From Blepharisma japonicum (taxonomy: Eukaryota; Ciliophora; Heterotrichea; Heterotrichida; Blepharismidae), in NCBI GenBank assembly GCA_949751835.1, contig CATKHK010000070.1, positions 62,001 to 126,000 on the forward strand: a stretch of DNA of 64,000 bases, written 5' to 3'. Under the pieces are notes generated by a model that was given only the letters and a program-made list of their open reading frames with translations, ran no database searches and was not told the DNA's origin. Shown piece after piece: positions 863 through 62,458 of the stretch (position 1 is the first letter of the stretch; the number at the start of each line of letters is the position of its first letter). The translations under genes were made by a program, and so were the position numbers.

Positions 863-3800
863 ATGATCGATACGAAGCAAGAAGATCCTATCATTCCTCC
901 TCACTCCCCTATTAATGCAACACAAAATATCCCATCGCTTTTCTCAGCCCTCGGCTTTTCAAAAGTGGCGTTATCTTCAAGCCCAGGCAATCAGCAATCA
1001 TTTAGCCCTGAAAATGCTCTCATAAAAGAAAACATTGGCCAGTTTCCTAAGGACAATAAAGTTCTGCCTCAAAAAAGCTCTGATCCTGAAAAATCCAAAG
1101 ACCCCTTAGCAAAAGCAGACATCCTAGCAGCTCAGCCTGCGCTTTTCGCGTTATCTGCCTTAGTAGAAAAGCAAGTGAAAATAACCAAAAAACCAACCAA
1201 AAAGCGGCAGTACAAAAAGCCACTTACTCCTCAGCAAATCCGCCTCAATGAAATAATCGATGAAATATCAGAATACATAATGGGAACTGCTGAAGATTCA
1301 ATGACGACCCCCTTTCAAATCAGATGTTTGGCGCTTTCAAGAGACAACGTAAATTTATTTTTCGGAAGTAGCAATGGAAATATAGCTCGCTATAACAGGG
1401 TTCAAAAAAATATAACAGATGATATTCCACTAAATGTAGGACCAATCTACGGGATCTGTCTAGATGAAATGAGTAACAAAGCCTTTATTTGTGGAGAAGA
1501 CCCTATTGTAAGGATTTATAGGCTTCCTAGATTTGAGCTTGAGTTTGAATTGCAAGGACACGAACAGTCTGTAAATTCTATAAGATTAGGCCATAGTAGG
1601 GAATTTTTGTATTCAGCAAGTGATGATGGGACAGTGAAGAAGTGGAACTTAAAAACGCTTGAAAATGAAGGCACAATTATGCAACATGTAGGAAAAGCGT
1701 CATCTTTGGCTTTAACTCCAAACGGAAAATATGTATTTTCAGGAGGCGCTGATAATTTAATTAGAGTTTACCAACTTTCGTATGGCCAACAAATATTGAA
1801 TTTAAAATCTCACAATGACTGTATCAAGTCTTTAGCAGTAAATAGCTCATCAACATTCCTGGCGTCAGGATCTGATGATTGCACAGTAATTTTATGAAAT
1901 ATTGAAGACTTCACTCCAATCAGAGTTTTCATAGATCATGAGGCAACAATTCAAGCTCTAGCTTTTAGCTTAGATGGTAGCATTCTTCTAACAGGCTCTG
2001 CTGACTTTACTATAAAAGTCTGAGATCTTGCAAAAGAAAGACGTGAAATCACCCTAAATTCCCACAAAAATATCATAAACGAGCTTATCATTTCTCCAAA
2101 TCAAGATTTTATCATCTCTTGTTCTGATGATAAATCCTTAAGAGTATGGAGTTTCCCTCAGTTTTTAGAAGAACAAGTCTTCAAAGCTCTCGAAAACTCT
2201 TTTAACTCAGTCGTAATCAGCCCTCTAAGCAATGAAGTAATTTCTTGTGGGACTGATAAATATGTCAGATGGTGAAACCCTGCAAAAGACGAAGCCTGCG
2301 TACTATGTGAGACCAATGGAGCAAGTCTAAAAGTGGCTGTAGCAAAAGATGAAAGCTGAATAGCAGCTGGGGACGATCTAGGGAAAATTTACCTTATAAA
2401 CTATAAAGAAAAAAAGCTAGAAAAAGAAATCCAGGCCCATTTAGGACCAGTCAGGGATTTATGCTTTTCTCATGACACTAAATATTTGGTAAGCGGAGGA
2501 GGAGATTCTACTGTCAGTGTATGGCACATTGAGAAATTAGAAGCCACAGTATTAAGAGGACATTTACAAAGTGTATGAGCTGTCGCTATAAGTTCTGACG
2601 GAGAAACTGTTATTTCTGGTAGTGGAGATGGGACATTACGTGTTTGGGATATATATAAAGGCAAAGAAAGATATACCGCCCAGTCACAAGAACAAATTTC
2701 AGCGCTGCAAATAGATAGACAAGACAGATACGTGATTTCTGGAGACCTAAAAGGAAATGTCAAGATATGGAGTATATATGAAAAAGCTATAGAAACTGAT
2801 TTTAATGAACAGCATAGAGATTGTGTTACTTCTATCTATGTATGCCATGATAATGAAAACTTTTTGACATCCTCAAGAGATAAAACCATTTATATATTTT
2901 CATTAAAATATAGAGTAGCGCTGTCATATTTAACTAGAAAACAAACTATTTTTTCTATGGCAGTTTCTGCTGATGAGCAGCTTATTGCTACTGGTGAGCA
3001 GGAAATGATTTATTTTCAAGAAAACCCACTAAAATCTACAAAGCCAAGAATTGTGGGACCTCATGAAGGGTTGCAGAAGTTTATTGCATATATGAAAGAC
3101 GTTATTAGTGACGCTGGTCCAGAGCATGACTCTGCAATGGATAATTTCATTATTATGCCTTATTTTTTCAACATTTTACACATATACGCTTACTATAATT
3201 TTTCTAGCTACCTTAAGCAATCTCTATTACAATCATCAGCTCCTATGGTTCCATCTAGAGAAGGCCATACTCCAATGACAATAACTTTACTGCGTAAAAC
3301 AAGATACTCTAGAGACGAAATCATTAAAGCACTTTACCGCTTTGGAAAAAGCAGCCCTTTTATTCTTCTTACACTAGAACGTGATATTTTTGTGCTAACT
3401 AAGCTAGGGCTACCATTAGTAGAAGAACTCTATAAAGTATTGTTCCAACAAGCAGGTAGGCAGTCTTTGCCTAAATTTTGTGAAGACGAAGAAATGATTT
3501 TGCCAATCGTTAATTTGTCTGAACATCCTAGAATAAAACCAATTGAATTTATGGATGAATCTTTGATGGGAAGTAGTGGGAAATGTATTTGCTTTATGGA
3601 GAGCTATGTAAAAATAGCTTTAACTGTAGGCAGCAAAGAAAGTATTGATTTTTTAGAATCTCTGTCAAAATGCAAAAATAATGAAATTTTTAGAACTCCA
3701 TTTATTAAATCAATAATTGATTATAAGTGAAGACAAGTAGGATTTATGATGAAAACACTTGGTGGAATGTATTTCTTATATTTATTAATTATGTGCTTGT

Positions 3801-4705
3801 ATACTGCATATTTCCAAGGAAACGTTTATTTCCAGTCAGCTTTATTTGCCTTTAATGTTATTTTGACTGCATTTGAGACCTTCCAGCTATGTGTGTCAGG
3901 AAGCCATTATTTTACTTATGTATGGAATTATATTGATTGGACCAGAAGCATTTTGCTACTAGTTTACTTAATCAATTCCTGGTCTGATGTAGACATGGAG
4001 CTTAATTTTTCCATTTTTTCTTTAGCAACCTTTGTCAGCTGAATCAGAGGTTTTTCATTTTTCAGGATTTTCGAAAAAACAAGATATCTGACTAATATGG
4101 TTGTAGAGGTCATTAAGAGCATTACAGGATTTTTAGTTATCATGGCATATTCCACTTTCGCCTTTACCTTTTTATTTATGGTCCTAGCTGGCCTCCACGA
4201 TAACCCTTCCTTTATAAGCTATTTATCTGTCTCTTATAACTTAATGCTCGGCGCTTTTGAAGCTGGAGAATATGATGTAATTGAATGAACCTGCATAACC
4301 TTTGCATTAATAGTAAACCCTGTTGTTATCCTAAATCTCCTAATATCAATTGTATCAGATGCTTTTGACAAAGTCAAAAGTGACAGTATCTCAGCTGACG
4401 CTAGAGAACTTGTAGACATGATAATTGAAGTAGAAAACTTAATGATCACAAGGAGAGGAAGAAATGAAAAAAAGTTTTTCCAACTCTGCAAAGAATATGA
4501 AAAAGATGAAGAAGACGAGTGGGAAGGCAAAATTAGAGAAATGCAGAAATATATTGAAGAAATTATAGAAAATAATGAAAAAGACAGAGAAAAGATTATC
4601 AAGATGATTAAGATGCAGGAAAGAGAAGCTAACGAGCAGTCAACAAAACTAGATATAGTGGTTCACAGAATGAAAAAAATCTGTGAAGCAGAAAAAATTA
4701 TTTAA
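863..4705 (+). CDS. WD40-repeat / TRP-like cation channel fusion protein
   Basis: One uninterrupted frame of 1,280 codons when TGA is read as Trp. After a low-complexity N terminus (about 110 residues) come many WD40 blades (about residues 145-760; GH...D...W-D/N motifs, several of whose blade-closing Trp are TGA). Then follows a region with about six hydrophobic helices (about residues 960-1170), including a pore-like loop and a last helix followed by a TRP-like segment (NLLISIVSDAF), and a charged coiled-coil tail. I infer a membrane cation channel of the TRP/ion-transport type in which WD40 blades occupy the place of the ankyrin repeats seen in animal TRPs. The selectivity and gating cannot be judged. 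The stop at 4703-4705 lies inside the 3' end of the converging UBE3D-like gene. No intron is needed. Confidence 0.8.
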
Positions 4706-22234: not shown

Positions 22235-25200
22235 ATGAATATCTTAAAAAAAGAATTTAATATATTAATGGGAGAAGACAAATTATTCAAAACGAGTTCA
22301 GCACCAGGCTCAGATTTCCGGCAAATAAGCATAGACCGAGGGCGTGCATCTGAATTAATTGTATTTCCAACAAATTACATAACAACAGCAAAATATACAA
22401 TTCTAACACTTATACCAAAGAACTTATTTGAGCAATTTCATAGAATTGCAAATATCTGATTCTTGATTGTTTCGATACTTCAACTTTTGCCGCTTGACCT
22501 CTCACCAACTTCAAATTGAGCTACAATTGCTCCGTTATCATTAGTCCTTACTGTGACTCTATTCAAAGATGTTTATTTGGACTATTGCCGGCACAAAATG
22601 GATCGAAAAATCAACAATAAAATAGTTAACATCTGAGATGAAAACCAAGGAAAATTTATTGAAATCAAATGAAAAGACTTAGAAGTAGGAAATGTGGTGC
22701 TACTAACTGAAGAAAACTGCCAAGTCCCTGCAGATATAATGCTTCTTACTTCAAGCCACCAAGAAAAGTTAGTGTATATAGAAACAAGCAGCTTAGATGG
22801 AGAAAGCAATTTAAAAATAAGAAACTGCGTATATGAAATTGCCAGTATTTTCGAAAATGAGTCCCCAGACTCTGCTATTAAAAAATTATATCATCTAGAT
22901 GAAGGCGTGCTTAGAACTGAGCAGCCTAATAACCGACTTCATGCCTTTGATGGCTCATTAAAGCTAAAAGGCCACCCACGAGCAATCCCTATTGACATAA
23001 ACCAAATGGTCTTGCGAGGCAGTAGCATAAGAAACACCCGCTGAGTCCTCGGACTCGTCGTTTTTTCCGGTTCAGATTCCAAGCTGATGCGGAACTCTAA
23101 AACTCCTCCTCACAAAAGAAGCAATATGGAACGAAAAGTCAACAAATATCTTGCAGTGGTATTTTCTCTATTATTCTTAATGGTATTTATCAGTACCAGT
23201 ATATCATTATCTTACTATTATTCAAACAAAAAAGCTGTAGAGTATTTTTCAGGTACCACCGTTGAAAACCAGCCTTTAATTATATTCACTTTTTTGATTT
23301 TATACAATAGCTTGGTGCCTATTTCTTTATATGTGACTATGGATTGTGTGAGAATTATCCAAGCACAGTTTATTAGATGGGATTTAGAGATGTTTAATGA
23401 AAAAATGAACCAGCCTACAATTGTGAAAACTATCGATTTAAATGAAGATTTAGGACAAATTGAGTATATTTTTACAGATAAAACAGGGACTCTGACTGAA
23501 AATCAAATGGAGTTTAAAAAATGCTATATTGGTGGAAAATCATATGGATTTCTTGAACCTCAGCACAGCACAAGGCAAACCCAGCTTTATCAGCATAAAA
23601 AATTCAAATTTGATGACCCACAGCTATGGGAAGATTTACAAGGAGAAGGCAAGGCAGAAATTTCAGCCTTTTTCGAAGGCCTTGCTTTATGCCATACTGT
23701 AATAGTAGACCATAAAGAAGATGAAACTGTATACCAAGCTGCTTCTCCTGACGAGGAAGCTCTAGTAATCGCTGCTCATTGTTTCGGATTTTCTTTTATT
23801 TCAAACCAAAACAAAATTTATACCTTAAAGATAAATAATGAGTGCATGGACTACAAAATATTAGGAATAAATGAATTCACATCAGACAGGAAAAGAATGT
23901 CAATTGTAGTAGTTCCTTTAAGTGATAAATCCAGAAAGCCATTTTTAATCTGCAAAGGAGCTGACAACGTTATGCTTGAGCGCTGCTTGGGAACTTCAAA
24001 TGAAATTGAAAAGCTAACAGTAAATTCATATGAGTTTTCTGTATCTGGGCTCAGAATTATGGTTCTTGCTAAAAAAGAATTGACAGATGAAGAAACACAA
24101 GCTTACAAAAAAGGTTATAATGATGCTGTTCATGCTTTAAATAATAAAGACAAAAGACTTGCAGATCTCGCTGAAGAACTCGAGCAAGATATGCAAATTG
24201 TAGGAGTCACTGCAATCGAAGATAAAATCCAAGAAAATGTTCCGTCGACTATATCAACACTCATTGATGCTGGAATTAAAATATGGGTATTAACAGGTGA
24301 TAAACAAGAAACTGCTATAAATATTGGCTATTCCTGCAAATTAATTAAGTCAAATATGAACCTCATTAAAGTCAATGCAAAATCATTAGAAGAGACTAGA
24401 AATATTCTCAGAGGAAACTTAACAAAAAATATAAGTGGACATGAGTTTAGGAGACAAACAAGTGTACTGGATCAAATAAGATATGTTGGCAATAATAATA
24501 AAAACACTCCTGGGAATTCTGTGATTGGTGACAAAATGATGCCCAGGTATCAATTTGTGAAGCATGATACTGATCTTCTTGATGGAGACATCAAAGTCAA
24601 AAATCCTCATTTATTGAATCAAGCCCTAATAGTTGATGGGCTGACATTAAGCTTTATTTTATCAGATTCAGTATGCCTGAGACTTTTTGTTATTTTAAGC
24701 ACCCTTTGCAAATCAGTTTTATGCTGCCGTGTTTCCCCTTTACAAAAATCAGAAATTGTGAAAATTATTAAAAATCATTTAGTCTTTAAGCCTATGACAC
24801 TAGCAATTGGGGACGGAGCCAACGATGTATCAATGATACAAGAAGCTCATGTAGGAATTGGAATTGTAGGCAGAGAAGGCATGCAAGCTGTAAACTCCAG
24901 TGACTATGCTATAGCAAGATTTCAATATTTACTACCTTTATTATTGAAACATGGTAGAAATAATTATGGAAGGCTTGCAAAGGTTATTTTATATTCGTTT
25001 TATAAAAATTTTATGCTGGTGCTTCCTTTATTTTACTTCAGCTTCCTCAATCAGTATTCTGGAACTACGCTTTATGATTCTTATCTCCAGGTGTTTTTTA
25101 ATGTAATTTTTACATCACTTCCTATAGTAGTTGTAGGGAGCATGAATAAAGATATAGAAAGTAGTGTGGTAATGGCAAATCCTTTTGCTTATATTCCTGG

Positions 25201-28200
25201 GATTTTTAATAAAAAATTCAATCTTGTTATTTTTATTAGATGAAGCTTTTTTGCTATACTTCATACACTTTGGATATTTATTCTTTTGAGAGGGGCTGAC
25301 TTATTTACTATGGATTCGCATGGGATGATGAGTGGGCTTGATTTATTTGGGACAGCTGGATTTTTTGCAATTATTATAACAGTGACATATGTTGTTTTTC
25401 TTGAAATGAGAGATTGGACATGAATATTTGTGTTAATAGCAAGTCTTAGTTTATTATTATTTTATCCGTTCGTATTTATATATGATGTCACAGCATTTCC
25501 TACAAATAATCTTGCGGGTGTCCCATCTAGGCTGTATAAGGTCGTTTATTGGTTTTTTTATATAACCTTAGTTCCACTTGGATGCTTTATTATAAATCTC
25601 TCTTATTTTTTTACAAGAGTTTTGTGATATCCTACGATTTCAGATCAACTGATAAAATCTTCACCGATAGCTCCTGAAGAAAGATATGAAGAAAGATATG
25701 TGGAAAACGAACGAAAAAATAATTTTCGTTTAGAAGAATACGGAGCAGCTTTAAACAAAGTCTTCATTAACAAAAATTTCAGAAACCTCACCAACCAAGA
25801 TGAAGACAGCAACTTTTACGCAATGAACTCTATCACTCTTGCATTTAAAAACCCATACGTTGAGAACAGTTATAAACAAAGCATGCTCGAAAATCAAGTA
25901 AAATTCACCAGATGAATGATAAAAATAATATTTGTGCTATACTCCATATACTGTATTGCCGATTTATCATCAAATTCATATGGCGACGCTTATATAGCCT
26001 TCAGATGTATTATGATAGGTGTTGTTTTTAGCTTATCTTTCTTTGCATCATCCCAGATATTTAAAAAACACTATGAATTATCTATAGTAATAATCATCTT
26101 TTTCGCCCTACTGATCAAATTTATTTTTGAAACAATTGCTATGAATGATGCCTCTATGAGTACTGCAATTGTCCCAATCGCTGTATTTATTTTGTTTAAT
26201 GTGAGCAATTATAAGATGTTTTTTATCAATTTGATTTTTTTGGTGATGTATTTAATTAGAATCACTATCTGGTATGCTGATCATTCTTCTCAAGCAGAAG
26301 CCACAATTATTATAACAAATTACATTGCATTATTATCAGGAATATTTTTAATAAGTGCTTATGTTGGCTATAAGATCGAAAAATTCAACAGGATTTCGTT
26401 TATCCTTGACAAAAAGCTTCAATTTCAATTCCAAAAAGGCCAAGATATATTAGGCAACCTCTTACCAGGGTTCGTTAAGGATAGAGTTAAACAAGGAGTA
26501 AGATATATAGCTGAAGAGCAAGCTCAAATTACTTGTCTATTTTGCGATATTTATGATTTCGATACCATTTGTTCGATACACACACCAAATGAGCTTCTTG
26601 AGCTATTGGATAAATTCTTCGCTATGCTAGATGCACTTTGTGATAAGCATGGAGTCACTAAAATTGAGACAGTCAATAAAACCTATATGATTTGCGGAGG
26701 ATTAAAAGATAGTGAAGCTCATCTTCCAAAAAAGCAGTTAAGAAGAAACCACGCAGAAAGGTGCCTAGATATTGCCTTACACATAATTAAAAAACTTGAG
26801 CCAGTTTATATCAAAAATGGGCACAAGCTACAAGTAAAAATAGGAATAAATTCGGGTCCTGTGATTGCTGGGGTTGTTGGCGAGCATAAACCACAATTTT
26901 CCCTTGTAGGTGACACTATTAATACAGCTGCAAGGATGTGTGGGACAATCAAAGTCCCTGATCGAATTCAAATATCAGAAGACACTTACAATTTATTAAA
27001 CAATCATGGCGAGTACATCTTCTTGCCAAATCAGGTTGAAGCCAAAGGCAAAGGAATCATGAACACTTTTCTAGTTGAGTCCGCAAAAGGACGTAATAAG
27101 CCAAGAATGCTTGGAGAAGGAAGCGTCCGTATCCCAATAAATGATCTGTCAGTAGAAGAGTCATTCTATGGAATTTCTGATAGTGTTTTAGAGAGAAGTT
27201 CTGAGCCTCTTATGCAGGATATAATTAGAGGGACAACGATTTTAAACTTTGAAGAAGAAAGAGTCCAAGAAGGCGAAAAATTCGACTGGACTAAGCTGAG
27301 AAAAATGCATGGGGATGAAGATAATGATTTAGAGCTTGCTGGACCTATTCATTGGCTTATGTGCAGCTTTTTTGAGACACCTTCGCAGCATAAATTTAGG
27401 ATTCGACAGTTTAATAATGAAATAAGAAGCGTGAATATTGGACTTTATTTGAGCATTGGCACCTTCACCACAATTACTATCGTATTTATTGCTGCTTATA
27501 GTGCTGATGAGTTAGCGGGATCTGTTATACAGGTGATTTTGAGATTGAGTTATATTTCTATTTTGGTATTTTATTTGATTTTGTTACTAAAAATTTATCA
27601 AAACTCAATGTTCCCTTGGGGAGTCATGATGATCTACATATACATAACATTTGTTAACCTTTTAAATTTCCATGATATAGACACTGATTTAATTTATCTT
27701 AAAATCATTCAAGTGATGTATACGAATATTGTAGTAAACCATGTCAGTGGGCTACCAATTGGGTATATATTAACTGCTACTGTAGTTAATTTTGTTGATT
27801 GATGCTGCGTAGCTTTTAGTTCAGAACATTCATTAGGAAGAATGATTGAAGGAACTTTTTTTATTGTTGCATTTTTCTTTTTAAACTGTATAGCTAGCTT
27901 TGTAAGAGAATATCAAGCTAGAAAATCATATGATCTTAATAAATTCGCTGAGAGGGAAATTAAAAACACAGAAAAATTGTTAAATCAAATGATACCTCCC
28001 CAAGTACTCAGAAATCTTCAGAATGATATTACTACAACTGATAGATACACAGATGTAACTATAATTTATGCAGATATCTGTGGATTTACCAGCTGATCTT
28101 CAGATAAAAAACCAATAGAAGTTGTTGGTATGCTTTCGAAACTCTTTACTAATTTTGATCATTTGTGTGTAAGGCATAATGTCTATAAAGTTCATACCAT

Positions 28201-28636
28201 TGGAGATTGCTACGTTATATTAAGTTTTACTGATAGCGAAAAAAGGAATTTTAAAGAAGAAGCAGTTAATATGGTTGAAATGGCTTTAGATATGGTTAAA
28301 GCTATCAAAAGAGTTAATAAAAGCAAAGGAATCGGCTTGAATATGAGAATTGGAATGCATACAGGAGTGGTTGTTGCTGGAATTACAGGCACAAATATTG
28401 TGAGATATGATATTTACGGTCCTGATAACGATATCGCTAATAAAATGGAAAGTAAAGGATGCCCAGGGAGGATAAATGTTAGTCAGGTTTCTAAAGCCAT
28501 TTTACAAGAAATAGTGCCAAACAGATTTGAATATCAGTTTAATACTGTTGTGACCCATGATCCAACTCAGAGATCTCTAGACTCATTCTTTTTAGTTCCA
28601 TTACTTGAAAAAGATATTATAGTTGATGAAGAATAA
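22235..28636 (+). CDS. P4-ATPase / guanylyl cyclase fusion, copy A
   Basis: One intronless frame of 2,133 codons. The first half is a P4-type (flippase) ATPase: N-terminal helices, DGES, the P4 signature P-I-S-L (about residue 362), phosphorylation motif D415-K-T-G-T-L-T, T-G-D-K-x-E-T-A and G-D-G-A-N-D (D860). Then come two sets of about six helices, each followed by a class III cyclase domain. Domain 1 (about residues 1402-1620) has D1438, a guanine-selecting Glu (E1478) and N1563/R1567, but Asn replaces the second metal Asp. Domain 2 (about 1926-2129) has both metal Asp (D1947, D1991), but Lys in place of the catalytic Arg. The two together make one active site. This is the architecture known from Paramecium, Tetrahymena and apicomplexan guanylyl cyclases. 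By alignment with copy B the real start may be the ATG at 22268. Confidence 0.93.
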
Positions 28637-28998: not shown

Positions 28999-31900
28999 AT
29001 GGGAGATGATAAGCTTTTTGGAGCAAGTACAGCACCAGGCTCAGATTTTCGTCAAATACATATTGATCGAGGCCGTGCATCAGAACTAATTGTTTTTCCT
29101 ACAAATTATATCACAACCGCAAAATATACCTATTGAAACCTATTACCAAAAAACCTATTTGAGCAGTTCCACAGAATTGCAAATATCTGATTTCTAATAG
29201 TCTCAATTCTTCAACTATTGCCTCTTAATTTATCCCCTACCTCAAACTGGGCCACAATTGCTCCATTATCCCTTGTCCTTACAGTAACACTCTGTAAGGA
29301 TATTTATTTAGACTGATGCCGTCACAAAATGGACCGTAGGATTAATAACAAAAGAATTAACATTTGGGACGAAAATAAAGGGAAATTCATCGAGCTCAAA
29401 TGGCAAGATCTTGAGGTTGGAAATATTGTGCTTTTAACTGACGAAAATTGCCAAGTACCAGCTGATTTAATCCTTCTTACTTCAAGTCACTCAGAGAAGT
29501 TTGTATATATAGAAACAAGTAGTTTAGATGGAGAAAGTAACTTAAAAATTAAACACTGTGTGAATGAAATTGCCAATATTTTTGAAAATGCGTCACCTGA
29601 TATGTCGATTAAACAATTATATCATTTAGATGAAGCGGTATTAAAAACAGAGCAGCCAAATAATAGACTGCATGCCCTTGATGCTTCATTGAAACTTAGA
29701 GGGCATCCTCGGGCTATACCAATTGATATTAACCAAATCATTCTGCGAGGAAGTTCAATTAGGAATACAAAATGGGTGCTTGGCTTAGTCGTTTTTACAG
29801 GAATCGATACAAAACTTATGAAAAATTCAAAACCGCCACCCCACAAGCGAAGCAATGTAGAAAGGAAAGTCAATAAGTACTTAGCCTTGGTTTTTTCAAT
29901 ATTATTTATTATTGTGCTGATATCTACTTCGATTTCTTTATCTTACACTTATAACAATAAAAGTGCCGTCAAATTTTTTACAGGTGCTGAGCTGCAAAAT
30001 TCTCCTTTGGTCGTTATAACTTTTTTGATTTTATATAATAGTTTAGTCCCAATTTCTTTGTATGTGACTATGGATTGTGTGAGAATTATTCAGTCGCAAT
30101 TTATTAAATGAGATTTGACCATGTATAGTGAAAAAATGAACCAGCCGGCAATTGTAAAGACGACTGATTTAAATGAAGATTTAGGACAGATTGAATATAT
30201 TTTTACTGATAAAACAGGGACTTTGACGGAAAATATCATGGAGTTTAAAAAATGCTATATTAATGGGAAATCGTACGGATTTTTAGAGTCTCAGCAATCC
30301 GATCGACCTACTCAGTTACTTTATCACCCGAAATTTAAGTTTGAAGACCCACAACTTTTAGAAGATTTGCAATGGGATGGAAAAGAAGAAATTTCAGCAT
30401 TTTTTGAGTCACTTGCACTTTGCCATACAGTTATACCAGACCATGTAGATGGGGAGCTTGTATATCAAGCTGCATCTCCTGATGAAGAAGCACTTGTAAT
30501 TGCAGCCCATTGCTTTGGGTTTTCTTATATTTCTAGCAAAAATGGGATTTACACACTACAAATCAATTTAGATATAACTGAGTACAAAATCTTAGGGATT
30601 AATGAGTTTTCATCAGACAGGAAGAGAATGTCAATTGTGGTGTTCCCTATAAATGATAGGACAAGAAAACCTTTTTTAGTGTGCAAAGGAGCCGATAATG
30701 TTATGCTGGAAAGATGCCTTGGGACGACATCTCAGATCGAAAAGCTGACAACTAATTTGTACGAATTCTCTATAGAAGGATTAAGAATTATGATTATTGC
30801 AAGAAAAGAGATGACTGAAGAAGAAGCTTTGGCCTATGAAAAAAAATATAGTGATGCAAAAAATGCTTTAAATGATAAACAAAAAAGACTTGCAGAATTA
30901 GCTGAAGAACTAGAGCAAAATATGACGATTGTAGGAGCCACTGCTATTGAAGACAAAATTCAAGAAAATGTCCCTGAAGCAATATCTACCTTAATAAACG
31001 CAGGCATAAAAATATGGGTATTAACCGGTGATAAGCAAGAAACAGCCATCAACATTGGCTATTCTTGCCATTTGTTAAAGCCAGAACTCGAATTAATGAA
31101 GCTTAACGGCCGAAGCATAGATGAGACAAGGAACATTTTACGCTACAACCTAGCCCGACACGTAAAATGTGACGAAGACGATGGAAGGAAACACAGTGTA
31201 CTCAGCCAAATCAGATACGTAGGCAACACCCCATCAAATAGTATCATAGGCTCAAAAAACACTGGTGCAAGATATCAATTCATAAAAAATGATGTTGATA
31301 TATTTGATGGAGATTTAGAAGTAAAAAATATGAATACCCTTAAACTTGCCCTTATAGTTGATGGAGTCACTTTAGGATTTATTTTAGCAGATCCACTGTG
31401 CTTAAGACTATTTGTAATTTTAAGTACCCTCTGCAAGTCAGTTATATGCTGCAGAGTTTCTCCACTTCAAAAAGCTGAGGTAGTGAGGACTTTGAAAAAC
31501 CGCTTGGCTTTTAAGCCTATGACTTTGGCCATTGGCGATGGGGCAAATGATGTCTCAATGATACAAGAAGCACACGTAGGGATTGGAATTGTAGGTAAAG
31601 AAGGCATGCAAGCTGTAAATTCCAGCGATTATGCAATTGCAAGGTTCTATTTCTTGCTGCCATTGCTGCTAAAGCATGGCAGAAATAACTATGCAAGAGT
31701 ATCAAAGGTGATTTTATATTCTTTTTATAAAAACTTCATGCTAGTTTTGCCATTATTTTATTTCAGTTTTTTTAATGCTTATTCTGGCACTGCGCTTTAT
31801 GACTCTTGGCTAATGGTTTCTTATAACATCATTTTTACATCTCTGCCTATTGCTGTTGTTGGAAGTATGAATAAGGATTTAGAAGGAGGAATAGCAATAG

Positions 31901-34900
31901 CAAATCCTATAGTTTACTTACCTGGGATTTTTGGGCTGAAATTTAATTTCAAAATATTTTTAAGATGATGCACTTTTGCAATTGTCCATACGATTTGAAT
32001 ATTTTTCCTTTTAAGAGCGGTGGACTATTTTACGATAGACTCACAAGGATCTTCTTCAAGCTTAGATTTGACTGGGACAGCAGGATTTTTTGCAATTATT
32101 ATTACAGTTACATTTGTAATTGCGCTGGAAATGAAAGATTGGACACTCTTATTTGTGCTGGTTACGACGGTCAGTTTACTGTTGTTTTATCCAATTATTT
32201 TTATATATGACTATGGAGGATTTCCGACACCAAGTATGGTTGGGATATCAACAAGGCTTTATTCAGTTCTCCATGTGTTTTTATATATCACTTTTGTCCC
32301 TTTAACCACTTTTATCCTGAATATAACTGTTTATCTAATTCGTACTCTTTGAAGCCCTACAGCTTCTGACCGAATCATCCAAGACTCAGTTTTAGCTTCA
32401 AAAAAGTATTCAAATGACCCACAAAACGATTCTTTTGCGAAGGACAATTTCAGACTTGAAGAGTATTCTTCGAAGCTTAATAAGGTGTATATTAATAAAG
32501 GTATTAAAAATGATATGAATGAAGATGAAGACAGTGATTACTATGCGGTATCAAACATTACTTTACAATTCAAAAGGGCTGATAATGAAAAAGTGTATAA
32601 GCTTAGCTATATTGACAAGAGAATTAAATATACGAGAGCAATGTTTATTGTAATCACTTTTATTTATACGGTATATATAATCCCAGATATGGTTGTAAAT
32701 ACATATTCTGATACTATAATTGTATCAAGATGCGTTATTTTTGTAGTTTTGGTTTGCATTTGCATTTTTACTAAGACGCATACATTTAGAAAACATTGCG
32801 AATTTTATATTTTGACCATTACATTTTTAGGATTATTGGCGAAATTTATTAATGAGTCAATGCTTATGAACGATGGTTCAATGAGCACAGCAATAGTACC
32901 GATAGCATTATTTATTTTATTCAATGTCAGCACTTATAAAATGTTTATCCTTAATTTATTATTTTTGATCATGTATTTTATAAGGATATCAATATATATT
33001 GTAACTAATGTTGACCCTGGTACTGGTTGGATGGTTATAATCAATTATTTAGTTCTTTTGTCGGGGATTTTTATAATAAGCGCTTATGTTGGATACAAAA
33101 TTGAAAAATTTCATAGATTAGAATTCATCCTCGATAGAAAGCTTCAGCTTCAATTCCAAAAAGGTCAAGATATCTTAGGCAACCTATTGCCAGGTTTTGT
33201 AAAAGAAAGGGTAAAGCAAGGAGTAAGATATATAGCTGAAGAGCAAGGAGAAGTCACATGCTTATTTTGTGATATTTATGATTTTGATACCATTTGTGCA
33301 ATTCATACACCTAATGAGCTACTGGAGCTCTTAGATAAATTTTTTGCTATTATAGATGCTTTATGTGATAAGCATGGGGTAACTAAAATCGAAACAGTCA
33401 ATAAAACCTATATGATTTGTGGAGGACTAAAAGACAGTGAAGAAAGACTTCCAAAAAATCAGCTCAAGCGAAATCACGCTGAAAGATGCCTTGACATAGC
33501 GCTTCACATTATTAAAAAAATAGAGCCAGTCGTTTTGAAAAATGGGCATAAGCTTCAAGTAAAAATTGGAATAAATACAGGCCCTGTAATTGCTGGGGTT
33601 GTTGGAGAACACAAACCTCAATTTTCTTTAGTTGGGGATACTATAAATACAGCTGCCAGAATGTGCGGAACTATAACAATTCCTGACCGAATTCAAATAT
33701 CAATGGACACTTATAACCTTTTAACAGAGAAAAACCGATATCTTTTTACACCTAATGAAGTGGAGCCGAAAGGGAAGCCTAAAATGCATACTTTTTTCGT
33801 AGAAAGTATTAGAAGCCGAAGAGGGTCAGAACTAGTAACAGCTTTATTAGACGCAAGCACAATTTCTCCTGATCATTCATTTTATGCTATTGCTGACGAT
33901 AGTTTAGCAAAAAGCCAGGAACCTTTAATACAAGAATTAATACGGGGAAGCACTGTAAAAGACTTTGAAGATGATAGAGTAGAGCAAGAAGAAAAATTCG
34001 ATTGAAATAAACTAAGGGAAACTGCATCTGCTGAAGATGAGTTTGAGTTAGAGCTTGCAGGACCAATGCATTGGCTGATGTGCAGCTTTTACGAAACCCC
34101 TGCAGAGCATAAATTCAGGATCCATCAATTTACAAACGAGCTTCAAAGTGTGAAATTTGGACTTTGGCTGAATATGTCTGTGTATGTTGTTATGATTACT
34201 CTTTTTACTGTACTCTATGCCTTTGAAGATTCAAGTGGATCGATTTTCCAGATAATCATAAGAGCCTGCTATATAGCTGGCTTAATGATAAACTTGATCT
34301 ATATAAAGCAGCTAAGCGAAAGCTCTCTTTTCCCATGAGGAGTTATGATACTTTACATTACGATTTCCTTTGTAAATAACCTAAACTTTGAAGAAGTCGG
34401 CCGGACCCTCACATATGCAAAAGTTTTACAAGCAATGTTCACAAATATTACAGTAAACCATATAAGCGCTCTCCCAATTGGATTTATTCTTACAGCAACT
34501 GTAGTGAACTATATAATCTGAATATGTATAGTTTTTAGCACAAGCTACTCTGCAAATCTAAAAATAGAAACTACCTTTTTTGTTACTATTTTCTTTCTAT
34601 TAAACTACGTTGCCAGCTTTGTAAGGGAATTTCAAGCAAGAAGGTCCTACGATCTTAATAAATGTGCAGAGAGAGAAATAAAAAACACAGATAAGCTTCT
34701 AAGCCAAATGATGCCTCCACAAGTGCTCAGAAACCTTCTAAACGATGTAGCCACAACTGATAAATACACAGACGTGACGATTATTTATGCTGATATCTGT
34801 GGGTTTACCAGCTGGTCTTCTAATAGGAAACCCATAGAAGTTGTAGGGATGCTATCCAAGCTTTTTACTAATTTTGACCATCTTTGCGTAATGCATAATG

Positions 34901-35355
34901 TATATAAAGTCCATACTATTGGAGACTGCTATGTTGTTTTAAGCTTCACTGATAATGAAAAAAGAGACTATAAAGAAGAAGCTGTAAGGATGGTAGAAAT
35001 GGCGTTGGATATGGTAAAAACTATTAAAAGGATAAGCAAAAGCAAAGGAATTGGCTTAAATATGAGGATTGGCATGCACACTGGAGAAGTTGTAGCTGGA
35101 ATCACAGGCACGAATATAGTAAGATATGATATCTATGGCCCTGATAATGATATCGCCAATAAAATGGAAAGCAAAGGATTCCCTGGCAGAATCAATGTAA
35201 GTGAAGTGACAAAAGCAATTTTACAAGAAATGCTTCCTAGCCGCTTTGACTATGTTTTTAACACAGAAGTAAGACATGACCCAACCAACAGGACCCTGAA
35301 CTCGTATTTTATAATTCCTTTGCTTGAAAAAGATATCATTGTTGATGAAGAATAA
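28999..35355 (+). CDS. P4-ATPase / guanylyl cyclase fusion, copy B
   Basis: A 2,118-codon paralogue of copy A with the same order: P4-ATPase (D404-[23 protein letters not shown] all present), six helices, cyclase domain 1 (D1425; KIETVNK with the guanine-selecting Glu; NTAARM), six helices, cyclase domain 2 (D1932 and D1976; NDIANKM). Identity to copy A is high over the catalytic parts by eye and lower in the membrane and linker regions. Both ends match copy A (MGDDKLF start; EKDIIVDEE end), so this is a full tandem duplicate rather than a fragment. It makes cGMP, by family knowledge; the ATPase half may translocate phospholipid or act as a regulator. All Trp at TGA codons fit. Confidence 0.93.
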
Positions 35356-35848: not shown

Positions 35849-38638
35849 ATGATCAAGTTCTTAAATAAAGAAACCAGGTATCAGGTTCCTCGCTGATGAA
35901 CCCACATGAGTTCTAACCACGACATAGTGTGACTCTTCCAAGATGACATTCAAGTGTCACCTGATGAGCGGTTTCCTTTTTACTTGAAATTGGTAAGGGT
36001 TGCAGTGCTCCAACTAATTTTATTGTGCGCAGTCGCATTTTTATTCGGCAATGGCGAGTATTTTTATAACGAATGCCAAAGGAGGAAGAAATGTATGACA
36101 TATTGCCAAGAAGCCTATTTTCCTTTATTAACATGCTCAAATTCAGGCTATATGCTGAATTACAAAGGAAATGAGTACACAAGGCTATGGAATTACCCTT
36201 ATTATGATAACTCAGAATATAGGATTTGCTATGGCTATATGAGTGACAACCCTGACTACTCCACATCAGAATGGGACTCTAATAGACAAGAAAGGCTTCA
36301 TACTTGTTTTCCAGCTTGCAAAGCAGAAAACGATACAGATTATACAGAAGACACAAGACCTGTATGCACAAGCAGTACTACTGACCCTGGAATGGTATGC
36401 GTTAGAGAAAATGACTCATGCGAACAAGTGTATTTACCTTCAAGGGTGGGTAGAGTGGATGGGATTTCTTTCGATATTGGCTATGCTTGAATTGCCATTG
36501 CTATTGCAAACTGTTTTCAGTATATTTACTTGTATATCCTTATATTTACGCTTGGACTCAAGTCTATGAGCATAAACAACATTAAAATAGGCTTCATGAA
36601 ATGTGGCGTGGAAACTGTTATTTTGGTTATTTCTGGGCTTTGTTCGCTGCTAATTGTATATCAAGCTACACTTATTGATGCTTATGGGCCTTCTAAAGAG
36701 TTTTGGTTCACGTTTTTTGTGGCTTTTATGATAGACCAGTCGAAGAGCTTTGTGTTCCATACAGGGGTATGATATTTTTTATTCCGTAGATGTGGATACT
36801 TAAGAACAAACGAAGAAGATTTTATCGACCCAGCTTGGAAACATAAAGATGAGCAAGCACAATTATCAATTCGTGGCCAAATCGCTAAAATAATGGAGAC
36901 AAATCAGTATAAATTTTGTTCTATGGGCTTTCTAGGCATTTATGCTGTCTATGTTTTAGCAATTTTAAGTATTGGCTCAAATACCATCCTCGATATTATT
37001 GATGTATCCTTTATAGGTGTCTTTTTATTTGAAATTTGTGTAGCTACATGGGTCAATTGCATGAAAAACTTTATGGACTTATTTAATATCTTTGACGCTG
37101 TTATTGTGTCTGTATCTTTTATTCTATATTTTGTAGGGGTTGGAGCTAAAGGATTAGCAGTCCTTAGGTTGCTGAGACTTGTAAGGCTTATTATTGTATT
37201 GAGAAAGGTAACTGCTAACACTCAACGAAAAAGCAGCGGGTATTCGACTGTTTATGAAGAGTCTTTAGCTATACTTAGACAGCTGAAAAATCAGAAGAAA
37301 TTGAGCTTTAAACAGAAAAAAGAGCTCAACTGGGTTATAGGGATTATAGAAAGTGGAAAACTTTATGATGTAGTGGTAGCTCAACAGAACGATAAAGGAA
37401 ATGGGCAGATTTCTCAGGATAATGAAGGCAGAAAATGAATTAATATGGCCACAATTATCGCGAATGATCCTTTGTTGTGGTTTGATAGAGATCTAGACGA
37501 TTATCTGTACGAGCGTCAAAGAGACGACGAACCTGAAGACAATAAAGATGAATTTGAAGAAGAAATCCGCCAGATCATTGGAATTTCTGAAAAAACCCAT
37601 TTTCAACTTGAAAAGATTTTCGACGACATCGGCAAATGGAGATTTAACGCTTTTCAATACTTTGACTTATGTGGGCCTCAGGTAGTTTCTCATTTTATTA
37701 TCAGGCTCTTTAAGCTTTACGACATTTCAAGAAAATTCGAAATCCCAATGATGTCTCTCAAAACCTTTTCAACTGCTATATATGAAGGATATTCCAGCAC
37801 AAATCCATATCACAACGCAATTCATGCTATTGATGTAGCACACAAGCTTAATTATTTTATCTTGACTGGAGACTTAATGAAATATATTTCAGATCTCGAC
37901 ATCATGGCAGCGCTTATAGCAGCAATTATCCATGATTTCCAACATCCAGGAGTCACTAATGAATTTTTAATTAAGCGGTCTCATTCAAAAGCAATCAGAT
38001 ATAATGATTTTTCAGTCCTGGAAAGACACCATTTAGCTAGTGCGTTTGCTGCTTTGTTAGACCAAAGCTGTGATATTACTATTAATCTTACTGAAGATCA
38101 ATACTGGCTAGTGAGGACTACCATTGTAAAAATGGTTTTATCGACTGATTTGAAGCTCCATGACAGGACTTTAGGGTCTTTCAAAAATTCAAGAAATATC
38201 CCGAATTTTCCAAATAATGATAAAGAGAGACAAATTTTGATGAATATCGCCTTAAGGATTGCTGACAATGGAAACCCTCTGCAGCCTCAAGATTTGTACT
38301 TTAAATGGATGGCTTTAATGATGGAGGAATTTTACCAGCAAGGAGACATAGAAGAGCATTTAAATATGGAGCTTACCGCACCGTTTATGGATAGAAAAAG
38401 CACGAATCCTTATACAAGCCAGCTTGCTTATATTGAAGTAGTTGTGGAACCAATGGTAGAAATATGGATTGATTTTATACCAGAGGTGAAAGAAGATATA
38501 TATACTAGAGGACTTCTAGAAAATAAAGAAGCCTTAAGACAAAAGTCAGATACAGTGCCGAAAATGAATAATGAAGAAGATACAAATGAAATTGACATGA
38601 AAAGAAAACGAAAAGAAGGGATGTTGATGGAGAAATAA
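35849..38638 (+). CDS. voltage-sensor-like membrane domain fused to cyclic nucleotide phosphodiesterase
   Basis: One frame of 929 codons. The N-terminal half has a first helix, a long Cys-rich extracellular loop (about residues 70-205, at least a dozen Cys), about three more helices, then a four-helix segment (about 350-455) resembling S1-S4, with NIFDAVIVSVSF in S3 and an S4 of regularly spaced Arg (R440, R443, R446, then R452/K453). No pore helix or filter follows; a charged helical linker leads into a class I PDE domain (about 535-905). The PDE has HNAIHAIDV (H655, H659), HDFQHPG (H695, D696), the IADNGNP metal Asp and the conserved SQ before the last helices, so it looks catalytically intact. 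It should hydrolyse cGMP or cAMP. Start at 35849, or 35828 if a mini-intron is spliced. Confidence 0.85.
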
Positions 38639-61954: not shown

Positions 61955-62458
61955 ATGGACTTCAACCCAAATGCTTACATAGAAGACTTTGACTTCGAAT
62001 CTCTCGAAGGCCTCCAGGAATTTTCCCAAGCCTTCCCAGTCCAGCCTTTTCGCTATGAACTCAATTCTGCATCAGTGTCAGTAAAATGTGAACTTGATGA
62101 CATCGCATCTCTCGAACCAGCTTATATGGACGATTCTACTGCAAGTACTTCGCCATGCGAAAGTTCAACTCAGCAATTTATCCCAAAACCGATCCCAAGC
62201 ACTCTCTTCATTGTTGATGAACATAAAGAAAAATTAATCGGAGCATTAACAGTGGAAGAAAGAAGAGAAAAAATTAAAAAATATCAAGAAAAGAAGAAAA
62301 GAAGGACGTGGGATAAAAAAATCAGCTATGTTTGTAGAAAAAAAGTAGCTGATAAAAGAGTCAGAGTTAAAGGAAGATTTGTTACTCAAGCCCAAGCTGA
62401 GGAAATTATAAAGCATCAGAAAGGGGAAGTGAAAAGCGATAAAACAATTCTGGAATAA
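61955..62458 (+). CDS. CCT-motif protein
   Basis: 167 residues from the ATG at 61955. The C-terminal part (about residues 88-140) is a CCT motif: R-E-K-I-K-K-Y-Q-E-K-K-K-R-R-T-W, K-K-I-S-Y-V-C-R-K-K-V-A-D-K-R-V-R-V-K-G-R-F-V. The N-terminal half is acidic and Ser-rich, like an activation region. In plants CCT proteins (CONSTANS, PRRs) are transcriptional regulators that contact NF-Y and DNA; CCT-only proteins also occur in alveolates. Nuclear role inferred. It has no B-box in this protein. Confidence 0.82.
   Translation: MDFNPNAYIEDFDFESLEGLQEFSQAFPVQPFRYELNSASVSVKCELDDIASLEPAYMDDSTASTSPCESSTQQFIPKPIPSTLFIVDEHKEKLIGALTVEERREKIKKYQEKKKRRTWDKKISYVCRKKVADKRVRVKGRFVTQAQAEEIIKHQKGEVKSDKTILE

Follow-up and report, generated by a model that had tools for sequence, protein, structure and literature searches.

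The protein described here combines a pore-less voltage-sensor domain (VSD) with a class I cyclic nucleotide phosphodiesterase (PDE), and we read it as an integral membrane PDE that is gated by its own voltage sensor, with a probability of roughly 70%. It is encoded in a stretch of 64,000 nucleotides (hereafter, the window; positions 62,001 to 126,000 of contig CATKHK010000070.1) from the ciliate Blepharisma japonicum, the genome of which comprises 45.2 Mb in 224 contigs. Evidence that a pore-less VSD is joined to a class I PDE comes from a partial match to Pfam Ion_trans, from comparison of a predicted fold with solved structures, and from the identity of key residues in all 38 aligned proteins. 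Besides the window protein (P0001) and its paralog (P0022), these 38 rows comprised all but one of the 37 other proteins recovered in relative searches, which reach only proteins that share short exact words; the one excluded (P0039) has no PDE domain. The rows are not all independent, since P0021 is a repeat of the C-terminal region of P0006.

A structural model of residues 1-520 that was built with the 38 aligned proteins (mean predicted local distance difference test score [pLDDT] of 81.6; predicted template modelling score [pTM] of 0.67) contains long helices at residues 44-66, 210-236, 242-279, 282-314, 352-375, 379-409, 411-429, and 433-463, the last four of which adopt the predicted S1-S4 fold of a VSD (residues ~334-460). 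The original prediction had proposed a comparison with the sensors of voltage-sensing phosphatases, and the modelled domain aligned with solved VSDs, including that of Ci-VSP, in a fold comparison in which at least one fifth of the rows cover residues 334-460 only. Ion_trans was missed when the full-length protein was scanned with Pfam but was found with a 126-residue piece (window positions 36863-37240; 42.2 bits, cut-off of 25), where the match spans positions 12-111 of 241 and thus S1-S4 only. A search of PDB sequences with the VSD returned a Nav1.7 VSD2 chimera (E = 1.6e-6).

Eight residues of the domain are identical in all 38 rows: D385, F392, E395, N413, D416, R440, R443, and R446. The charge-transfer centre of VSDs combines an acid and an aromatic residue in S2 with an Asp in S3, and D385, F392, E395, and D416 provide these. 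Their order, D-x6-F-x2-E followed by the S3 Asp, reproduces the spacing of the outer acid, charge-transfer Phe, inner acid, and S3 Asp in Shaker. Basic residues recur at every third position of S4 with a gap at position 449, which is Ile (R, R, R, gap, R-K); position 452 is Arg in 36 rows and Lys in two, and position 453 is Lys or Arg throughout. The predicted S4 helix with Arg at 440, 443, 446, and 452 was recovered, but Ile449 breaks the regularity that had been ascribed to it. Mean conservation of S4 (0.76) was the highest among 12 segments measured in the N-terminal half, the others ranging from 0.40 to 0.62. A single copy of the pattern [RK]hh[RK]hh[RK] is present in the protein, which is weak evidence when taken alone: of 20,000 shuffled versions of the protein, 442 (2.2%) contained it as well. 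What settles the identity of the domain is homology, as indicated by the Ion_trans and Nav1.7 VSD2 matches and by the invariance of R440, R443, and R446. Collectively, sequence and model indicate that this is almost certainly a genuine VSD.

Neither a pore domain (S5-P-S6) nor a filter, as would characterize a voltage-gated channel, was found after S4 in the Ion_trans match, the model, or the hydropathy profile. The Ion_trans match extends no further than position 111 of 241, the helices that follow S4 in the model of residues 1-520 are short (468-480, 487-501, and 504-515), and the only hydrophobic windows past residue 457 (cut-off of 1.4) lie within the PDE domain (676-694 and 859-877), with none between residue 457 and that domain. 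The proposed absence of a pore helix and filter is thus borne out, and a normal pore domain, which the original prediction had named as contrary evidence, does not appear in the model. S4 is instead followed by a linker of ~120 residues without membrane helices, in which W495, K504, Y506, and W530 are identical in all rows and of which residues 502-564 have pLDDT < 50 in the full-length model. Hv1 likewise has a VSD but no pore domain, which raises the alternative of a voltage-gated proton or cation path through the VSD, in which case the PDE would be a regulator on the cytosolic side. This is very improbable, given that an S1 Asp is required for proton selectivity in Hv1, whereas S1 of the window protein (352-375) contains no Asp or Glu (E350 lies just ahead of it), and that the sequence matches of the VSD among solved structures are channels of the Nav/Cav type.

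The C-terminal part matched Pfam PDEase_I with 231.2 bits in the full-length protein, and its best solved relative was PDE4D (E = 1.3e-56). A model of the full-length protein was weaker (pLDDT of 65.5; pTM of 0.43), and all 50 structural matches among those listed for it were PDE4 entries. The metal-binding His and Asp residues and the invariant Gln (H655, H659, H695, D696, D806, and Q858) are all present, in agreement with the prediction of a complete class I PDE, and on this basis the catalytic core is intact and that of a class I cyclic nucleotide PDE. N809 aligns with an Asn of PDE4D, but the same column holds Lys in 15 of 38 rows and Trp in two and is not decisive as to cyclic AMP (cAMP) or cyclic GMP (cGMP). 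In the full-length protein, no Pfam family other than PDEase_I was detected at E <= 1, including any PTEN-like phosphatase domain or the Guanylate_cyc domain that would mark an ion-channel adenylyl cyclase.

The suggestion that related proteins might exist in databases proved correct. Precomputed PF00520 and PF00233 assignments occurred together in all 20 proteins of a first search and in 17 of the 18 proteins of a second, and the VSD-PDE architecture was found in Stentor coeruleus (SteCoe_35440) and Chromera velia; one relative came from transcriptome MMETSP1397, which we take to be Climacostomum. A profile search (A4), in which only the 7999 candidates that shared most words were scored, yielded 17 proteins at E <= 1e-20, comprising 13 already known, a fragment with the PDE only (P0040), and three ion-channel proteins. 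Within the B. japonicum genome, the N-terminal half matched only itself and the paralog P0022, the latter in two pieces; P0022 (contig C19; 973 amino acids) shares 29% identity with the window protein end to end. Genome-wide, 70 PDEase_I matches (the last two of which look like pieces of one gene) were compared by eye with the matches listed among at least 157 for Ion_trans (150 of 247 candidates scored). A candidate third VSD-PDE on contig C12 was rejected, as its Ion_trans and PDE matches lie in separate frames and the 733-residue PDE frame begins past the Ion_trans match.

The six PDE core residues are retained in 28 of the 38 proteins, the window protein among them, and are altered in the other ten. 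P0005, P0008, P0013, and P0014 carry Thr for H655 and Ala for Q858, while P0032-P0035 carry Leu for Q858, and the VSD residues are identical in both groups. The divergent P0036 and P0038 have lost the H695/D696 pair and retain the key VSD residues. The substitutions in the first four proteins suggest a PDE that is dead or only binds its ligand, alongside an intact VSD.

Ahead of the VSD, the model places four further helices, such that the four-helix segment of the original prediction holds for the VSD but falls short of the total, which is now eight candidate membrane helices. The fourth (residues 282-314) was not picked out by the hydropathy scan at a cut-off of 1.4, and its D296, Q297, and K299 each occur in at least 90% of rows. 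For each of eight Cys residues in the loop between the first and second helices (76, 82, 86, 96, 127, 153, 184, and 191), 33-35 rows have a letter, and the Cys is retained in 32-34 of them. Counting eight membrane helices and placing the PDE in the cytosol would put this loop outside the cell, where the original prediction had suggested a possible ligand sensor. Counts of Lys plus Arg versus Asp plus Glu are 5/6 in the N-terminal stretch, 14/22 in the loop, 5/7 between the fourth helix and S1, and 11/6 after S4, and are not decisive as to the topology. No Pfam family was detected at E <= 10 in the 520-residue N-terminal piece that includes this module (window positions 35849-36790). Our guess is that the Cys-rich loop and the four extra helices probably form a second sensory or assembly module.

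The additional module with its eight conserved Cys residues, the retention of VSD residues in the ten proteins with altered PDE cores, and the lack of a visible VSD-PDE interface in the weak full-length model would all fit a real VSD that serves in assembly or targeting and does not gate the PDE, for example by pairing with a channel or by holding the PDE at the ciliary membrane, with the enzyme constitutive or controlled by the Cys-rich domain. We consider such a role unlikely, since mere anchoring does not require gating charges, a charge-transfer Phe, and acidic partners that are identical in 38 of 38 proteins. The partial Ion_trans match that escaped the full-length scan and the gap at position 449 could likewise point to a degenerate, voltage-insensitive remnant of a channel that was inherited with the PDE. 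However, a remnant would be expected to lose its charges, and the invariance of the eight key residues and the rank of S4 as the most conserved N-terminal segment make this scarcely credible. We favor a PDE under the probable control of its VSD, comparable to voltage-sensing phosphatase but with another effector. In such a protein, a change in membrane potential would move S4, the linker helices would transmit this movement to the enzyme, and the rate of cyclic-nucleotide hydrolysis would change. An electrical event in the ciliate could then directly reset cAMP or cGMP beneath the membrane; that depolarisation would activate the PDE is a guess.

The reading frame, its coordinates, and the numbering of the four S4 Arg residues were correct as originally given, with TGA read as Trp. 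The gene contains six in-frame TGA codons, at residues 16, 17, 28, 214, 308, and 530. This code is supported because W530 is Trp in all 38 proteins and W308 in all 36 rows with a letter; the other four positions fall in variable columns and are little informative. The alignments of two relatives (P0004 and P0009) likewise begin at the first Met of the window protein, in support of this start. Coordinates of the gene, its domains, and other genes are compiled in Table 1.

Table 1. Positions of the VSD-PDE gene, its predicted parts (residues in parentheses), neighbouring genes, and candidate VSD-cyclase genes. Positions refer to the window unless a locus is named.
Feature	Position	Strand	Basis or content
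VSD-PDE gene	35849..38638	+	929 codons plus stop, table 4 (TGA=Trp), single unbroken frame
Membrane helix M1 (44-66)	35978..36046	+	Model and hydropathy
Cys-rich M1-M2 loop (67-209, 143 residues), predicted extracellular	36047..36475	+	Conserved Cys in alignment
Membrane helix M2 (210-236)	36476..36556	+	Model and hydropathy
Membrane helix M3 (242-279)	36572..36685	+	Model and hydropathy
Candidate membrane helix M4 (282-314)	36692..36790	+	Model; unflagged by hydropathy scan
VSD S1 (352-375)	36902..36973	+	Model, fold comparison
VSD S2 (379-409), D385, F392, E395	36983..37075	+	Model; three residues identical in 38/38
VSD S3 (411-429), N413, D416	37079..37135	+	Model; both identical in 38/38
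VSD S4 (433-456; model helix extends to 463), R440, R443, R446, R452, K453	37145..37216	+	Model, alignment
S4-PDE linker (457-578)	37217..37582	+	Predicted cytosolic helices 468-480, 487-501
Class I PDE catalytic domain (579-896; Pfam PDEase_I 654-882)	37583..38536	+	Pfam, PDE4D match, residues
P4-ATPase/guanylyl cyclase-like gene, copy 1	22235..28636	+	Open reading frame (ORF); cyclase matches C70:88513 and C70:90040 inside
P4-ATPase/guanylyl cyclase gene, copy 2	28999..35355	+	ORF, Pfam
Candidate VSD-cyclase gene, locus L038	L038:847-3579	-	Ion_trans positions 4-117 (S1-S4), then Guanylate_cyc
Candidate VSD-cyclase gene, locus L039	L039:1942-4584	+	Ion_trans positions 3-116 (S1-S4), then Guanylate_cyc
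Candidate VSD-cyclase gene, locus L040	L040:1546-4344	+	Ion_trans positions 3-113 (S1-S4), then Guanylate_cyc

The tandem pair of P4-ATPase/cyclase genes lies directly upstream on the same strand, with 493 bases separating copy 2 from the start of the VSD-PDE gene. Such an arrangement is weak evidence for a cGMP module, because no cyclase was seen by eye beside the C19 paralog among the printed ORFs (the four longest at each of loci L036 and L037). Elsewhere in the window, positions 863-4705 code for a 1280-residue protein with WD40 repeats, which are followed by a C-terminal part that, by eye, appears hydrophobic and ion-channel-like.

Cyclic-nucleotide genes are numerous in the B. japonicum genome, with 87 Guanylate_cyc matches. 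Among the cyclases, the proteins of L038-L040 join an Ion_trans match limited to S1-S4 to a cyclase domain and are possible synthetic counterparts of the VSD-PDEs. Their S4 segments have basic residues at every third position as judged by eye. We tentatively suggest, as an idea that falls somewhat short of even odds, that both sides of cyclic-nucleotide turnover in ciliates of this kind are voltage-controlled by separate single proteins. The messenger would be produced by the VSD-cyclases of L038-L040 and broken down by VSD-PDEs, namely the window gene and P0022; a change in potential would produce a transient without calcium or G proteins, and relatives with altered cores may be voltage-gated cyclic-nucleotide binders. 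The VSD effectors known so far range from channels and a proton path to an exchanger, a lipid phosphatase, and an adenylyl cyclase (with a pore). If voltage-gated, the PDE would bring the breakdown of cyclic nucleotides under the direct control of membrane potential. It could also link the electrical signals of ciliates directly to the messengers by which cilia are steered, and could serve as the basis of a voltage-controlled PDE tool.

Class I PDEs of the PDE4, PDE1, PDE7, and PDE9 type have their catalytic domain in common with the window protein. Whereas such enzymes carry soluble regulators (UCR, GAF, or others), the window protein has in its N-terminal part a membrane module of eight helices that includes a VSD. 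Which ciliary parts, PDEs among them, let depolarisation or hyperpolarisation modify the beat is asked in the accessible part of a Paramecium review (PMC4588038). The combination of Ion_trans and PDE domains is already on record, because an ion transport domain or portions of one have been reported for Toxoplasma PDE4 (PMC7720076) and for PDE4 and PDE16 (PMC8809380). The descriptions in these papers, from which alone the Toxoplasma proteins are known here, place a portion of Ion_trans and PDEase_I in one alveolate protein, as in the window protein, and the architecture is possibly the same. The passages available from these reports read the combination as implying that cyclic nucleotide signalling is coordinated with cation transport, or that the proteins may control ion transport or come under its control (PMC7720076; PMC8809380); the word 'voltage' does not occur in the main text of either paper. 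Catalytic residues of TgPDE4 are reported there to be substituted, and an excerpt of PMC10865986 describes apicomplexan PDEs as having undefined regulatory domains. A VSD could explain the 'ion transport' portions of these enzymes. In Euplotes, according to the section seen, PDEase_I and Ion_trans genes are always adjacent (PMC8670190), a pair that could be a VSD-PDE fusion split in annotation.

In the portions available, a 2023 review of VSD proteins lists channels, sNHE, adenylyl cyclase with a K+ pore, VSP, and Hv1, and no PDE (PMC10651576), and a 2012 review of voltage-controlled enzymes contains neither 'phosphodiesterase' nor 'PDE' (PMC3440755). Term checks of the accessible text of PMC4588038, PMC8584932, PMC5746546, and PMC3440755 found no VSD-PDE. 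A voltage-sensing, -gated, -sensitive, or -dependent PDE was not found in the open-licence literature, and a description elsewhere is possible. The domain combination is thus known, and the open-licence literature searched yielded no description of a PDE controlled by a voltage sensor that lacks a pore and has all its key residues.

The ion-channel adenylyl cyclases of Plasmodium, Paramecium, and Tetrahymena (Weber 2004), as outlined in the parts available of PMC10651576, PMC12414865, and PMC5746546, resemble the window protein in that an alveolate VSD is joined to a cyclic-nucleotide enzyme, but they possess a K+ channel pore and make cAMP, whereas the window protein lacks a pore and is a hydrolase. 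The VSD-cyclases PPTG_13136 and PPTG_13761 of Phytophthora, as described in the accessible part of PMC12223298, belong to a family that the proteins of L038-L040 resemble, and both groups have a cyclase where the window protein has a PDE. In the sperm Na+/H+ exchanger SLC9C1, the effector is an exchanger in place of a PDE. As an analogy, the parallel that was originally drawn with voltage-sensing phosphatase is a good one. The effector of Ci-VSP is a lipid phosphatase, in contrast to the class I cyclic nucleotide PDE of the window protein, and the latter differs further in its four extra helices and Cys-rich loop.
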